Source: Elusimicrobiota bacterium (GTDB taxonomy: Bacteria > Elusimicrobiota > Elusimicrobia > UBA1565 > UBA9628). From it: a DNA stretch of 64,000 bases. Location of the stretch: NCBI GenBank assembly GCA_003151975.1, contig PLZD01000002.1, forward strand, positions 3,638-67,637, read 5' to 3'. This document shows, one piece after another, positions 28,052 through 41,513 of the stretch; position 1 is the stretch's first letter, and each line of letters opens with the position of its first letter. A program made the translations under genes and the position numbers. Under the pieces are notes generated by a model. That model saw only the letters and a list, made by a program, of their open reading frames with translations. It did not search any database and was not told the origin of the DNA.

Positions 28052-28080
28052 TGGAACTTTTTTAGGGGGTCAATCGTATG
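28052..28080 (+). promoter_or_regulatory. ECF-sigma-like promoter of tRNA-like gene 1
   Basis: TGGAAC (28052-28057), 17 bases, CGTATG (28075-28080). ECF sigma factors of the sigmaE/sigmaW kind read GGAAC/TGAAAC with CGTA at 16-17 bases. The same elements, and much of the spacer (TTTTAGGGGG.TCA.T), recur at 41276. No sigma70 -35 fits here. Confidence 0.5.
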
Positions 28081-28092
28081 CTCTTTAAGGTT

Positions 28093-28164
28093 CCCAGGGT
28101 AGTTTAATTGGTAGAACGCACCCCTGTCAAAGGTGTGGTGCAGGTTCGAGTCCTGCTCCTGGGG
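28093..28164 (+). tRNA. tRNA-Asp(GTC)-like gene
   Basis: 72-base cloverleaf: acceptor CCCAGGG/TCCTGGG (one G-U), D-arm GTTT/GAAC with GG in the loop, anticodon loop CTGTCAA (GTC), T-arm GCAGG-TTCGAGT-CCTGC, discriminator G73, no encoded CCA. Odd points: C1-G72 instead of the usual G1, a C-A mismatch closing the anticodon loop (31-39), and flanking AGG/CCT that could extend the acceptor helix. It might be a genuine tRNA-Asp, but its promoter and its downstream antisense RNA suggest a special role. It lies between gabT and rocD, antisense to both. Confidence 0.7.
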
Positions 28165-28180
28165 CCTGTCGTTCCGTGTC

Positions 28181-28209
28181 TTGACAGAGTTTCGGGGCTC
28201 TGTTAAACT
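28181..28209 (+). promoter_or_regulatory. Sigma70 promoter of antisense RNA 1
   Basis: TTGACA (28181-28186), 17 bases, TAAACT (28204-28209). It starts 17 bases after the tRNA-like gene. An inverted repeat ACAGAG-8-CTCTGT (28184-28203) overlaps the -35 and spacer. Predicted start is G28216, the first base of the antisense segment. Confidence 0.7.
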
Positions 28210-28215
28210 GTCGTC

Positions 28216-28268
28216 GACAGGGGTGCAAGAAACTACCCAAAGGCTCCGGGCAACCGGGGCCTTTTCGT
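28216..28268 (+). ncRNA. Short RNA antisense to tRNA-like gene 1
   Basis: About 53 bases. GACAGGGGTGC (28216-28226) is complementary to 28118-28128 (tRNA-like bases 26-36: anticodon stem 5' strand through the anticodon), and AAACTACCC (28230-28238) to 28097-28105 (bases 5-13: acceptor end and D-stem). Pairing would loop out 12 bases of the tRNA-like RNA and 3 of the small RNA and would destroy the cloverleaf. It ends in a GC hairpin. No open reading frame. A homologous arrangement at 41431 carries different, matching segments. Confidence 0.6.
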
Positions 28269-28271
28269 TTT
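28242..28271 (+). terminator. Rho-independent terminator of antisense RNA 1
   Basis: GGCTCCGG-GCAA-CCGGGGCC, 8-bp stem with a tetraloop, followed by TTTTCGTTTT. It abuts the rocD stop codon and could also act on the opposite strand, where TTTGG follows. Confidence 0.7.
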
Positions 28272-35752: not shown

Positions 35753-37105
35753 CTATTGGCCGCCGAGCCACTGGGGCTCCTGGTTCGCGTTGAAATCGCG
35801 GCGAGCGGCCTTGGAGACCTCGGGCTTCAGATAATCGAACGCGGCGCGCCAGTCTCCCGGGTGCTCCTTGAGGCCCCGCAGAAAATAATAGGTGAAGAGG
35901 CCGTGGCCTTTGTCCTTGTAGGTGTTGCTGACCTCGTCGCTCTTGGCGGCCGCCAGCACGGTGATGTTCGCGGGGATGTTCGTCTGCTTGACGGTTACCA
36001 GCGGCCTGGCCCCCGCGGCGATGACCGAGCGGCCGCCCGCACCCGAGAAGCATGAGTCGAGCGCGACGGTGATCTTTGAAGCCGGGAGCTTGGACAGCGC
36101 TTCGTACATGCGCTGCAGCGGGAAGGCGGTCTTGGCCAGGTACATGGGGTCCCCATCGTAAGGGACCAGGTAGGAATCTCCCGTCGAGGGATTGGGCGCG
36201 CCGTGGCCGGAGAAATAGACGAACACCTCGTCGCCGGGCCCAACGCGCGAGGGCAGCCAGCTCTCAAAATACTTCTCGAAGTCGCTTTTGCCGGCCTGGC
36301 CGTCGGTCAGCAGCGCAATCTCCGCTTCGGGATAGCCCGCCGCGCGGTTGAGATACTTCGCGACCAGCCGAGCGTCGGCGGCCGCGAAGCTCGCCGAGGG
36401 AAGCTTCGCGCGGTAGTTCTCGATGCCGATGACGATCGCGTGCCCTTTGCGCGGCGCCGCCGCTTCGGGCAGCTCGTCGACGTCCGAGAGGCGGAAGGCG
36501 TTGGCGGCGACGGCCTGGCCAGTGCGGGCGAATTCCTTGAGCTTTTCCGACGAGAAAAGAGCGCCCTCGAAATTGTAGAGCGCCTCGTCGACGGCCGACG
36601 CCATGTTGCGCGGCGTCCACAGCCTGCCGCTGCCCTTGGACATGGGGTTCCAGAACGAGTTGGTCTTGCTGCTGTAGCCCCAGTTCTCGCCGGCGACGGA
36701 GTCGATCTGCTTCTCGTCAAGAGTGAGAAAGGTCGCGCGCAGGGAAATGTCGACCGTGGCCCGCGCGCACGAGAGCACCGTGCGGTCGTCCATGATCGCG
36801 ATGAGGTCGGCTTGGGCGGCGCGCCCGGCCTCGGGGGAGTCGACGCTGATGACCTTCCGGAAGGCCATCTCGAGCTTCTTCATCGATTCGTCGAACCAAG
36901 CGCGCGGGGCGTAGATTCCCCCGTAGCACATCATCGAGGTCGCAGCGCGGGCATTGTCCCGCATCTTCTGGGTCTGGATGAGCGCCAAAGTCAGCTTCTT
37001 ATATAACGGGCGGGAGACGTCGACATTCGCGTAAGGGTCCGGCGGCTTCGTGAGCGTCGCGCAAGCGCAGAAGATTGCGATGAGCGGCAGTAGACCAATT
37101 CTCAT
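35753..37105 (-). CDS. Caspase-like (peptidase C14) lipoprotein
   Basis: 450 residues. Signal with lipobox-like FCAC (Cys15), a 190-residue N-terminal helical domain of unknown type, then a caspase fold from AIVIGIENY (about 223) with YFSGHGA (His301) and DSCFSGAGG (Cys352). No ankyrin repeats, unlike its neighbour. Its ATG directly abuts the stop codon of the ankyrin-caspase gene, so the two are translated together behind dihydropyrimidinase. Target unknown; the dyad is intact. Confidence 0.86.
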   Translation of the reverse strand: MRIGLLPLIAIFCACATLTKPPDPYANVDVSRPLYKKLTLALIQTQKMRDNARAATSMMCYGGIYAPRAWFDESMKKLEMAFRKVISVDSPEAGRAAQADLIAIMDDRTVLSCARATVDISLRATFLTLDEKQIDSVAGENWGYSSKTNSFWNPMSKGSGRLWTPRNMASAVDEALYNFEGALFSSEKLKEFARTGQAVAANAFRLSDVDELPEAAAPRKGHAIVIGIENYRAKLPSASFAAADARLVAKYLNRAAGYPEAEIALLTDGQAGKSDFEKYFESWLPSRVGPGDEVFVYFSGHGAPNPSTGDSYLVPYDGDPMYLAKTAFPLQRMYEALSKLPASKITVALDSCFSGAGGRSVIAAGARPLVTVKQTNIPANITVLAAAKSDEVSNTYKDKGHGLFTYYFLRGLKEHPGDWRAAFDYLKPEVSKAARRDFNANQEPQWLGGQ

Positions 37106-38374
37106 TTAGAACCTCTGGTCGGCGCCCGCGAAAGTCGGCGTTTGTTCCCGATTCTGGCGGCGCGCCTCGTCCTCGACCTTCGGCTTCAGGAAATCGAAGA
37201 GTTCCCGTGAGCCCGTCTTGCCTTGGTCGAGTCCCTTCAGAAAATAGTAGGTGAACAGACCGTGGCCCTGGTCGTCAAGCGTGCCGGTGATCTCATCTCC
37301 GGAGGCGGCGGCGAGCACCGTCAGGTTGTTGGAGGCCGGCAGGTCCTGCTCGACCTTCGTCACGAGCGGTCGGGCGCCTTTAGCGAGCACGGAGCGGCCG
37401 CCCGCGCCCGAGAAGCAGGCGTCCAGCACGACCACGATGTTTTTGGCCTTGATCTTGGCGAGGTTCGCGTAAAGCTGCTTGAGCGAATAGGATGAGGTTT
37501 TAAGGAACTTCGGGTCGCCGTCCCATGGTACGAGGTAGGCGTCGCCGGTCTTCGGATCGGGAGCGCCGTGCCCAGAGTAATAAACGAACAAGGTGGAGTC
37601 TTCTTTGACGTTGAGCGGCAGCCATTCTTCGATGTAGCTCTGCAGCTTGCTCTTCGTCGCGGTCTGGCCTTCGAGCGAGACGATGTTGCGCGCGGGCACG
37701 CCGAGGGCCTCCAGGTGCTTGCGCACGGCCTGCGCGTCGCGGGCTCCGAAGTCCGCCTTTGGCAGGCTTTGATAATCTTCGATGCCGATGACCAAAGCGA
37801 AGTCGTCGGGGCGATCCGCTCCGCTCCGCGTCGGCTCGTCGACGTCGGAGAAGATCGCCTTCGCGGCCTGAGCGCGGGATGACTCCAGCATGCGCTTCAT
37901 CGCGTCCGGGTCGAGATTGCCGGGCTGGCGCGGAGCTCCGTTCTTGAGACGCTCGAGCTGCCGGGGCTTCTCGGCCTCGAAGTAGGCGAGGACCTCGGGA
38001 TGCTTTTTGGCGACCCACCGGGCTGCGGTCATCTCGCGCTCGCCGATAAGCGCCCCATGCTCGACCAGGTACTTCGCCATGTCGAGCCGTCCGTTGTAGG
38101 CGCAGTAGAACAGCGGGCTGTCGACGAAGAAGCGTCCGTTGAGCCGGGCGCCCTTGGACACTAGATATTTGAGGGAATCGAACTTGCCGTTGTCGCAGGC
38201 GTAGCAAGCCGGCTCGATGTTGGGCGAGAAAAAGGACTTATTGATGTCCTCGCTAGCCAGAGCGCTCTCGATGCCCGCGATATCCTCGTGCTTGATCGCG
38301 GTTTGCAGCGAGCCCGCGCAGCCGGTGAGGATAGCTAGTGATGCCAGCGCCAGGACGGCGGAAAGGCGGCTCAT
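37106..38374 (-). CDS. Ankyrin-repeat / caspase-like lipoprotein
   Basis: 422 residues from the ATG at 38374; the frame continues upstream but that region codes for dihydropyrimidinase in another frame. Signal and lipobox LTGC (Cys19), two or three ankyrin-type repeats (about 22-130), a linker, and a caspase domain from FALVIGIEDY (192) with YYSGHGA (His269) and DACFSGAGG (Cys320). The TGATG overlap with the dihydropyrimidinase stop implies translational coupling. Very similar in its peptidase domain to the protein at 3937-5475, so a recent duplication is likely. Confidence 0.88.
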   Translation of the reverse strand: MSRLSAVLALASLAILTGCAGSLQTAIKHEDIAGIESALASEDINKSFFSPNIEPACYACDNGKFDSLKYLVSKGARLNGRFFVDSPLFYCAYNGRLDMAKYLVEHGALIGEREMTAARWVAKKHPEVLAYFEAEKPRQLERLKNGAPRQPGNLDPDAMKRMLESSRAQAAKAIFSDVDEPTRSGADRPDDFALVIGIEDYQSLPKADFGARDAQAVRKHLEALGVPARNIVSLEGQTATKSKLQSYIEEWLPLNVKEDSTLFVYYSGHGAPDPKTGDAYLVPWDGDPKFLKTSSYSLKQLYANLAKIKAKNIVVVLDACFSGAGGRSVLAKGARPLVTKVEQDLPASNNLTVLAAASGDEITGTLDDQGHGLFTYYFLKGLDQGKTGSRELFDFLKPKVEDEARRQNREQTPTFAGADQRF

Positions 38375-39771
38375 CAGTTGAAGTTGCGCGGCGGCCGTCT
38401 GAGGAACTGGCCGTGGCCCTTGGAGCCGACGAACTTGTCGTGATCGACCATGTGCTTGCCGCGGATGAACACGTGCGCGATCGAGCCGTCGACCGTTTTC
38501 CCTTCGTAAGGATTGTAGTCGGCCGCGGTGTGCTGGTTCTTGATCGAGATCGTGTGCTTCTTCTTCGGGTTGATGAGGACGATGTCGGCGTCGCCGCCCG
38601 GCGAGAGATGTCCTTTGCGCGGATAGAGGCCGAACAGTTTGGCCGGAGTGGTGGAAGTGATCTCGACGAACCGGTTGGCCGTGATCTTGCCCTTCGAAAC
38701 CGCATCCCAAAGAAGAAGCAGTCGGGTTTCAACACCGGGCGCGCCATTAGGGATCTTCGCGAAGCTTTCTTTGCCGAGCTCCTTGCCGATCTTCGTTTTG
38801 GTCGCCTTCATGCAGAACGAGCAGTGGTCGGTTGAGACGACCTGCAAGTCGTTGCGCACGAGGCCCTTCCAGAGCCGCTCCTCGTTGCCCTTGGGGCGCA
38901 GAGGCGGGCTCATGACGAACTTGGCGCCCTCAAAACCGGGCCGCTCGTAGTCCTCGTAAGAAAGATAGAGATACTGCGGGCAGGTCTCGGCGAAGACCGG
39001 TTGGCCGCGCTCGCGCGCGCGCCGGACCTCGTCCAGCGCGTCGCCGGCGGAGAGATGCACGAAATAGATCGGCGTGCCCGCCATCTCGGCCAGCGCGATC
39101 GCGCGGCGCGTGGCCTCGGCCTCGGCCGACATCGGCCGGGTCAGGGCGTGGTACTTGGGCTCGATCTGGCCAGCGGCGATGGCCTTCTGCACGAGCACAT
39201 CGATGACGCCGCCGTTCTCGGCGTGCATGCAGATCATCCCGCCGTTTTCCTTGGTGCGCGAAAGCGCCCGGAAAATCGTCGCGTCGTCCGACATAAAGAT
39301 GCCTGGGTAGGCCATGAAGAGCTTGAAGGAGGCCACGCCCTCCTTGATCATGTCGTCCATTTCCTTGACGCGCTTCTCGGGCAGGTCGACGATAATCATG
39401 TGGAAGGCGTAGTCGACGACGGACTTGCCCTCGGCCTTCCCGTGCCAAGTGTCGAGCGCGCCTTTGAGCGACTCTCCCCGCTTCTGGATCGCGAAGTCGA
39501 TGACCGAGGTCGTGCCGCCGAACACCGCGCCGGCTGATCCTGTTTGAAAGTCATCGGCGGTGGTCGCGCCCATGAAGGGCATATCGAAATGGGTGTGAAC
39601 ATCTATACCGCCTGGAACGGCGATGAGACCGCGCGCGTCGACGACCTTGGCGTCGCCGGCGTCGATCTGGCCCACGGCGGCGATCTTGCCTTTGGAGATC
39701 GCGAGGTCGGCGACGAACGAGTCGGACGCCGTGACGAGGTTTGCGCCCTTGATGACGAGATCGTAGGCCAT
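38374..39771 (-). CDS. Dihydropyrimidinase (D-hydantoinase family)
   Basis: 465-residue cyclic amidohydrolase that opens dihydrouracil/dihydrothymine to N-carbamoyl-beta-amino acids. All metal ligands are visible: H59 and H61 (DVHTHFD), carbamylated Lys150 (SFKLFMAYPG), H183, H239 and Asp315 (STDHCSF). Second step of the reductive pathway, between PreAT and beta-ureidopropionase. Start 1 base from the NCS1 permease stop; its own stop overlaps the start of the caspase gene. Confidence 0.93.
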   Translation of the reverse strand: MAYDLVIKGANLVTASDSFVADLAISKGKIAAVGQIDAGDAKVVDARGLIAVPGGIDVHTHFDMPFMGATTADDFQTGSAGAVFGGTTSVIDFAIQKRGESLKGALDTWHGKAEGKSVVDYAFHMIIVDLPEKRVKEMDDMIKEGVASFKLFMAYPGIFMSDDATIFRALSRTKENGGMICMHAENGGVIDVLVQKAIAAGQIEPKYHALTRPMSAEAEATRRAIALAEMAGTPIYFVHLSAGDALDEVRRARERGQPVFAETCPQYLYLSYEDYERPGFEGAKFVMSPPLRPKGNEERLWKGLVRNDLQVVSTDHCSFCMKATKTKIGKELGKESFAKIPNGAPGVETRLLLLWDAVSKGKITANRFVEITSTTPAKLFGLYPRKGHLSPGGDADIVLINPKKKHTISIKNQHTAADYNPYEGKTVDGSIAHVFIRGKHMVDHDKFVGSKGHGQFLRRPPRNFN

Positions 39772-41275: not shown

Positions 41276-41304
41276 TGGAACATTTTAGGGGGGTCATTCG
41301 TATA
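41276..41304 (+). promoter_or_regulatory. ECF-sigma-like promoter of tRNA-like gene 2
   Basis: TGGAAC (41276-41281), 17 bases, CGTATA (41299-41304). Same elements, spacing and spacer core as at 28052. An AT-rich TATATATATTAAG follows, ending next to the tRNA-like 5' end. Confidence 0.5.
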
Positions 41305-41318
41305 TATATTAAGAGGTT

Positions 41319-41389
41319 TGCCAGGTAGTTTAAAGGTAGAACAGCCGCCCCTCAAGCGGAAGGTGTGGGTTCGAGTCCCACCCTGGCAA
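41319..41389 (+). tRNA. tRNA-like RNA, degenerate tRNA-Glu(CTC) type
   Basis: 71-base cloverleaf: acceptor TGCCAGG/CCTGGCA, which can be extended to about 11 pairs by flanking GGTT/AGCC; D-arm GTTT/GAAC with GG in the loop; T-arm GTGGG-TTCGAGT-CCCAC; A73; no encoded CCA. The anticodon arm is abnormal: GCCGC-CCCTCAA-GCGGA has only four pairs, and position 33, nearly always U in decoding tRNAs, is C. The arm looks two bases shorter than that of an ordinary tRNA-Glu. It probably does not decode normally; a loop read as CAA would pair even worse. Confidence 0.55.
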
Positions 41390-41395
41390 GCCGTC

Positions 41396-41424
41396 TTGAC
41401 ACCGCACACGGCCAGGGTTATACT
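41396..41424 (+). promoter_or_regulatory. Sigma70 promoter of antisense RNA 2
   Basis: Consensus TTGACA (41396-41401), 17 bases, TATACT (41419-41424), starting 7 bases after the tRNA-like gene. Predicted start is A41431. GCCAGGG in the spacer (41411-41417) can pair with CCCTGGC at the tRNA-like 3' end (41381-41387), an alternative to the acceptor helix in a read-through transcript. Confidence 0.75.
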
Positions 41425-41430
41425 ACGAGT

Positions 41431-41509
41431 ACTTGAGGGGCGGCTTCCGAGCGCGAGTTCGGATGTTAAACTACCAAAGGCCTCGGCGAAAGCCGGGGCC
41501 TTCGCATTT
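41431..41509 (+). ncRNA. Short RNA antisense to tRNA-like gene 2
   Basis: About 79 bases. CTTGAGGGGCGGCT (41432-41445) is complementary to 41343-41356 (tRNA-like bases 25-38, the whole anticodon loop and 5' stem) and TTAAACTACC (41466-41475) to 41324-41333 (bases 6-15). Between them is a hairpin TCCGA-8-TCGGA (41446-41463). A GC hairpin closes the RNA. Same design as the RNA at 28216, but with different, matching antisense segments. No open reading frame. Confidence 0.62.
41479..41509 (+). terminator. Terminator hairpin of antisense RNA 2
   Basis: GGCCTCGGC-GAAA-GCCGGGGCC, 9-bp stem with a GNRA-type loop, followed by a weak TTCGCATTT tract. It also sits just past the stop of the beta-ureidopropionase gene on the other strand, so it may be bidirectional. 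Confidence 0.6.
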
Positions 41510-41513
41510 CCCA

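Follow-up and report, generated by a model that had tools for sequence, protein, structure and literature searches.

On its plus strand the window, by which we mean the whole stretch of 64,000 nucleotides that was analysed, carries two short loci of the same design (locus 1, window 28053-28271; locus 2, window 41276-41510), in each of which a tRNA gene is followed by a small RNA complementary to it. Locus 2 is made up of the following parts.

41277-41303, plus strand: predicted ECF-type promoter, GGAAC-N17-CGTAT, upstream of the tRNA (motif recurrence)
41319-41389, plus strand: tRNA gene (ARAGORN; Rfam RF00005, 64 bits; position parse)
41324-41333, plus strand: target segment 2, 10 bases, acceptor-strand end and D-arm of the tRNA
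41343-41356, plus strand: target segment 1, 14 bases, anticodon arm of the tRNA
41396-41424, plus strand: sigma-70 promoter of the antisense RNA, TTGACA-17-TATACT, 11 of 12 consensus bases
41432-41445, plus strand: antisense segment 1, CTTGAGGGGCGGCT, reverse complement of 41343-41356
41446-41463, plus strand: hairpin separating both antisense segments (fold)
41466-41475, plus strand: antisense segment 2, TTAAACTACC, reverse complement of 41324-41333
41479-41509, plus strand: terminator, GGCCTCGGC-GAAA-GCCGGGGCC TTCGCATTT (sequence and fold)

The two complementary stretches that a preliminary description of this DNA had placed here are exact in coordinates and in sequence, and the hairpin that it had drawn between the antisense segments is present. 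What it had called a "tRNA-like" RNA scores as an ordinary tRNA gene, both with ARAGORN and above the gathering score of Rfam RF00005, so that the molecule stands and the qualifier does not. By position parse this tRNA has anticodon CUC at 41351-41353, C33, U1-A72 and A73, with CCA not encoded, and with C33 in place of U33 it is not a canonical elongator. Two further elements went unmentioned in that description, namely the sigma-70 promoter belonging to the small RNA and the candidate ECF-type promoter of the tRNA. Antisense segment 1 begins 7 bases past the -10 box, where the small RNA is predicted to start; the terminator probably ends both this RNA and the tRNA transcript. In this genome there is no terminator between tRNA and antisense, so a transcript started at the ECF-type promoter would carry the antisense in cis too. 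The locus is flanked by two minus-strand genes, apparently part of a reductive pyrimidine-degradation operon as judged by sequence; a T-box or riboswitch was rejected, since the pairing involves the anticodon arm over 11-15 bases and the nearest genes are on the opposite strand. Elsewhere in the window (35753-38710), two adjacent proteins show caspase-like (peptidase C14) motifs by eye, and one of them bears ankyrin-like repeats.

Locus 1 repeats the design; such pairs are small, at about 230 bases.

28053-28079, plus strand: ECF-type promoter (motif)
28093-28164, plus strand: tRNA gene, anticodon GUC (ARAGORN; Rfam RF00005)
28181-28209, plus strand: sigma-70 promoter of the antisense RNA, TTGACA-17-TAAACT
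28216-28226, plus strand: antisense segment 1, 11 bases, pairing with the anticodon arm at 28118-28128
28230-28238, plus strand: antisense segment 2, 9 bases, pairing with 28097-28105
28242-28271, plus strand: terminator (sequence and fold)

The order of parts is common to both loci, as had been described, and each antisense is specific for its own locus: the longest match of the locus 2 downstream stretch to the tRNA of locus 1 is 10 bases, and the longest in the reverse comparison is 8. When the downstream stretches were dinucleotide-shuffled 6000 times each, the calculation that the preliminary description had proposed, a match of at least 14 bases arose in 1/6000 shuffles for locus 2 and one of at least 11 in 10/6000 for locus 1, and the ordered second match never arose alongside at either locus. 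Cofolding of the locus 2 tRNA with its small RNA gives both duplexes plus the hairpin as the minimum free energy structure, at -87.0 kcal/mol vs -25.0 and -38.7 kcal/mol for the separate RNAs. Among 51 tRNAs, the best match of each small RNA of this genome is its own tRNA, with 11-15 bases compared with at most 9 for any housekeeping tRNA. Exact-match specificity was used here in place of RNAduplex energies of 38-base stretches, which do not discriminate because the program ignores internal structure.

Spread of the modules and conservation of the pairing

Seven tRNA/antisense modules are found in this genome, where 6 ECF-type promoters precede tRNAs; the seventh tRNA, with anticodon GUC (C53:96156), stands immediately behind a gene for a Lys/Ala-rich protein, and it is this gene that has the ECF-type promoter. 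The product of that gene is histone-like, and the gene ends right before the tRNA with its antisense (L070, G000:C53:95475-96300). Across the order at least 34 modules exist, and 34 unique modules were analysed; pattern searches located modules in 13 genomes, nine genera and two families, with 0 to 1 matches for the reversed-pattern control. Outside the order, a pattern search of 341 genomes of the phylum gave no convincing module, the printed matches in two of them (G202 and G338) being unlike tRNA genes. Within the order, three matches in one genome (G016) were discarded: one is an ordinary tRNA-Pro that lacks an antisense, and the remaining two gave no tRNA. The taxon-labelled records that carry modules are Elusimicrobia and the remaining ones are bacterial MAGs; spread beyond the phylum was rejected, the only clearly non-Elusimicrobia match in the genome scan (L180, Porticoccaceae) containing no tRNA by ARAGORN and being taken as a chance match. 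The pattern search found no modules in viral contigs.

Nearly all modules sit behind a GGAAC/CGT-type promoter, and in nearly all of them an antisense segment starts 3-7 bases past a near-consensus -10 box and therefore at the 5' end of the RNA. An antisense RNA adjoins every module tRNA but one, the exception being a UUC copy (L151, in G020). Most relatives, unlike this genome, also have a trailer hairpin behind the tRNA, and 6-10 bases of its loop complement the anticodon region. Some modules are clustered in relatives, and their neighbour genes include no constant partner; nor was a dedicated synthetase found among the neighbour genes looked at. In one relative, a single tRNA is followed by two tandem antisense copies, each behind a sigma-70-like promoter (L136, G027:C40:60170).

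The preliminary description had argued from matched change at two sites that the pairing is selected, and this holds over the 34 modules. The longest match of a module tRNA to its own downstream RNA averages 12.0 bases vs 6.2 for those of other modules, a difference reached in 0/100,000 permutations, and housekeeping tRNAs give as baseline a mean longest match of 5.35 and a maximum of 9 (n=43). The covariation that it had proposed to look for in homologues is present: among the modules whose anticodon is one for Asp, Glu, Tyr or Ser (n=28), tRNA positions 29, 30 and 32-35 are Watson-Crick paired in 28/28, each with two or three pair types and no G-U. As the register was picked by best match, the fair control is the cross comparison made with the same script, which gives 8.1 pairs out of 12 as against 11.0 for self. 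Changes between related modules tell the same story. For example, the orthologues L126 and L011 differ by three arm substitutions, all of them compensated in the antisense, and L138 and L144 have tRNAs that are 88% identical with anticodons GUA and CUC, respectively, the antisense having switched to match. Where mobile elements integrate at tRNA genes, a direct repeat of the tRNA 3' end is the mark; the repeated stretches within the modules are inverted and correspond to the anticodon and D arms.

The ECF-type promoter and the identity of the tRNAs

Regulons of ECF sigma factors with GGAAC/CGT promoters are known. In this genome GGAACN{14,19}CGTAT occurs 65 times, as against 28 occurrences when the pattern is reversed. 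There are about 50 sites of the form GGAAC-N16-TCGTAT, and the consensus is near GGAACTTTTT-GGGGGGTCAA-TCGTAT. One such motif lies upstream of an ECF sigma gene, whose product has sigma-70 regions 2 and 4 and whose next gene encodes a protein with a weak zf-HC2 score. The sigma factor has homologues in 51/56 genomes of the order, and in nine relatives among those examined the motif is found at about the same distance upstream of the sigma gene. Further genes behind the motif include recA, comEC, comF and an integron integrase (TIGR02249, 345.7 bits), as well as genes for Gp49 and BrnT toxins, Abi_2, YhcG, Schlafen and NYN proteins and transposases. The integrase gene is at G000:C40:300-1450 (L104), and the comEC, comF and recA set is covered by L058, L056 and L054. 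We read the GGAAC/CGT-type sites as a putative ECF sigma regulon for DNA uptake and recombination, with the promoter type and a sigma gene behind its own motif as the features by which it can be recognised. Like known ECF regulons it has the motif, the self-preceded sigma gene and then a zinc-finger anti-sigma candidate; unlike them, it would include tRNA genes together with recA, comEC, comF and the integron integrase. The idea that it replaces a missing SOS response is not supported, LexA being present; the gene set suggests that cassette capture in Elusimicrobia is governed along with DNA uptake by an ECF factor rather than solely by LexA. Genome-wide, the start codon often follows the motif by about 7 bases (CGTAT-N7-ATG), and an ATG so close to the -10 element points to leaderless mRNAs.

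The module tRNAs have a cloverleaf with conserved arms, scoring with ARAGORN and above the gathering score of Rfam RF00005, and carry the anticodons GUC, CUC, UUC, GUA, GAC and GCU. Their bodies often fit another amino acid. For example, GUC modules have U1-A72 in 18/21 cases and G73 in 20/21 but G1-C72 in none, two of those in this genome carrying C1-G72, whereas the housekeeping tRNA-Asp of this genome has G1-C72, the pair strictly conserved in bacterial tRNA-Asp (PMC9976931). Among the parsed housekeeping tRNAs of this genome U1-A72 is confined to tRNA-Gln and tRNA-Asn, and it is the pair recognised by GatCAB (PMC4206432, PMC9976931). GatB is present and GlnRS falls below the cut-off; AsnRS is also present, and the organism therefore need not amidate Asp-tRNA. 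The bodies of the GCU modules are of class I with A20 and A73, which is the Arg identity set (PMC9976931), and the body of the GUA module is of class I too, where the housekeeping tRNA-Tyr is class II. Judged from these positions, hybrid identity, that is the anticodon of one amino acid on the body of another, appears to be the common theme of the modules, with GUC/U1-A72, class I GCU/A20 and class I GUA modules as candidate instances by sequence. It is ambiguous for the CUC (locus 2 among them), UUC and GAC modules, because CUC and UUC would match Glu if no amidation takes place, and GAC, with A35 C36, belongs to Val. Finally, C33 is found in 15/34 module tRNAs vs 0/44 housekeeping tRNAs, and with this base and their weak anticodon stems the module tRNAs could be unable to decode.

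Probable silencing of the tRNA: proposed mechanism, alternatives and known systems

Our preferred reading, to which we give a probability of roughly 0.6, is that the module is an RNA-RNA pair in which a constitutive antisense silences a stress-induced tRNA of hybrid identity. The tRNA would be made from the ECF-sigma promoter, and the short antisense RNA constitutively from its own strong sigma-70 promoter, with its 5' end complementing the anticodon arm. At rest, the antisense would open and cover any leaked tRNA at its anticodon arm, often also at its D-arm, so that such tRNA would be neither charged nor able to decode; once the ECF factor is active, tRNA in excess would escape the antisense and act. 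The antisense RNA would thus be antitoxin-like, as IstR-1 is toward TisB. That the antisense silences its tRNA is, judging by the pairing, very probable. The most likely output would be mis-decoding or slowed translation through the mismatch of body and anticodon. In a GUC tRNA with U1-A72, for example, GatCAB could turn Asp into Asn or Glu into Gln by amidation, and in the GCU modules the body is of Arg type; mistranslation as the output is nevertheless a tentative assignment. Transcription from both module promoters and silencing in the cell are what we infer from layout, complementarity, covariation, promoter motifs and the sigma gene with its own motif, all of which can be read from the DNA. 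The wider proposal, a programmed, sigma-triggered mistranslation whose missense tRNAs, present as families, are silenced by anticodon-directed antisense and released with the machinery of DNA uptake and recombination, is put forward with more doubt than conviction.

Alternatively, the tRNA could be a benign stress isoacceptor that is correctly charged, the antisense merely setting a threshold of expression until the ECF regulon is on. The ordinary anticodons GUC, CUC and UUC, the good tRNA scores and a G73 that fits AspRS in 20/21 GUC modules would all agree with this, and small RNAs are known to set expression thresholds by antisense. Such tight and repeatedly re-evolved silencing would, however, be needless for a harmless tRNA, and the departure of U1-A72 from the G1-C72 of bacterial tRNA-Asp (PMC9976931), C33 in 15/34 modules, Ser and Tyr anticodons on class I bodies and the switching of anticodons between related modules make this reading unlikely. 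The roles could also be reversed, with the small RNA as an effector on a housekeeping tRNA or an mRNA and the tRNA-shaped RNA as its inducible sponge. We consider this quite improbable: a constitutive small RNA whose 5' seed is free, as predicted here, would be titrated by an induced tRNA, but in this genome it matches its own tRNA far better than any housekeeping tRNA (11-15 vs at most 9 bases), it holds little beyond antisense and terminator, and its sequence tracks that of the tRNA, switched anticodons included.

Queuosine-tRNA nucleases have targets that GUC and GUA anticodons resemble, and the ECF-type motif also precedes genes for ribonuclease-type toxins and for Abi_2, YhcG, NYN and Schlafen proteins, so that the tRNA might be seen as a decoy, protected or recycled by the antisense, for a nuclease that cuts anticodons and is encountered in DNA uptake or attack. 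An idle decoy needs no silencer, however, and the antisense hides precisely the would-be cut site; the anticodons are too varied (GUC, CUC, UUC, GUA, GAC, GCU) and no anticodon-nuclease gene lies among the neighbours tested, which leaves little room for this explanation. The last candidate holds that the complementary stretches arose by chance or are functionless, recently made inverted partial duplications. The preliminary description had itself named such duplications, lacking conservation, as what would refute it, and the repetition of modules in the genome and their clustering in some relatives might bring the idea to mind. It is dismissed as extremely improbable by the permutation test, the shuffles, the fixed distance to a consensus promoter and a pattern conserved in 13 genomes of nine genera with covariation and compensated change.

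The silenced-tRNA reading finds its closest parallel in tisB/istR-1, a type I toxin-antitoxin pair of E. coli in which an RNA antitoxin confines a stress-regulon effector to stress (PMC8145889). On this reading both combine an effector transcript under a stress regulon with an RNA antitoxin, and both have a second restraint by cis structure, here the trailer hairpin loop of the relatives that pairs with the anticodon. They differ in that the effector would be a tRNA and not an mRNA for a membrane peptide, in control by an ECF sigma factor and not LexA, and in an antisense aimed at the anticodon and not at a ribosome standby site (PMC8145889). By sequence the antisense adjoins its target and has its own promoter, as in type I systems, but that target is a tRNA gene and not the mRNA of a protein toxin. 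CreTA, whose CreA has CRISPR-like repeats and works through Cascade, is often grouped as type VIII, a class where an RNA antitoxin neutralises an RNA toxin. Both of its partners are RNA, as are those of the module by sequence, and CreT too works through tRNA supply; unlike the effector proposed here, CreT is no tRNA, and its repression is transcriptional, by a CRISPR effector that CreA guides, whereas the module small RNA consists of antisense and terminator and is directly complementary to the tRNA (PMC8501985). The tRNA-ProX/ProRSx pairs of Streptomyces resemble the modules in joining the body of one amino acid to the anticodon of others, with an odd base 33, tRNA-ProX too departing from U33. 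These hybrid-identity, mistranslating tRNAs are co-encoded with a dedicated synthetase, which the inspected neighbour genes of the modules do not include, and neither an antisense RNA nor an ECF promoter is described with them (PMC11415595). We could not find the tRNA/antisense module described as a class of gene pair, and an antisense RNA silencing a dedicated tRNA through its anticodon was not found in the open-access papers searched. If confirmed, the tRNA would join the kinds of effector held by an RNA antitoxin, and a natural, inducible and programmed change of decoding would be tied to DNA uptake in a phylum that has barely been studied genetically.

Comparable layouts are seen at other genes of the genome. 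Many Gp49- and BrnT-type toxin genes (L045, L053, L055, L061, L101 and others) parallel the tRNA modules in layout: an ECF-type promoter lies about 30-80 bases ahead of the gene, and an internal sigma-70-like promoter sits immediately in front of the toxin. Upstream of an NYN-domain gene (L036, G000:C2:167441), an ECF-type promoter and then a sigma-70 promoter lead into a short terminator-ended RNA, which may be another small-RNA module.
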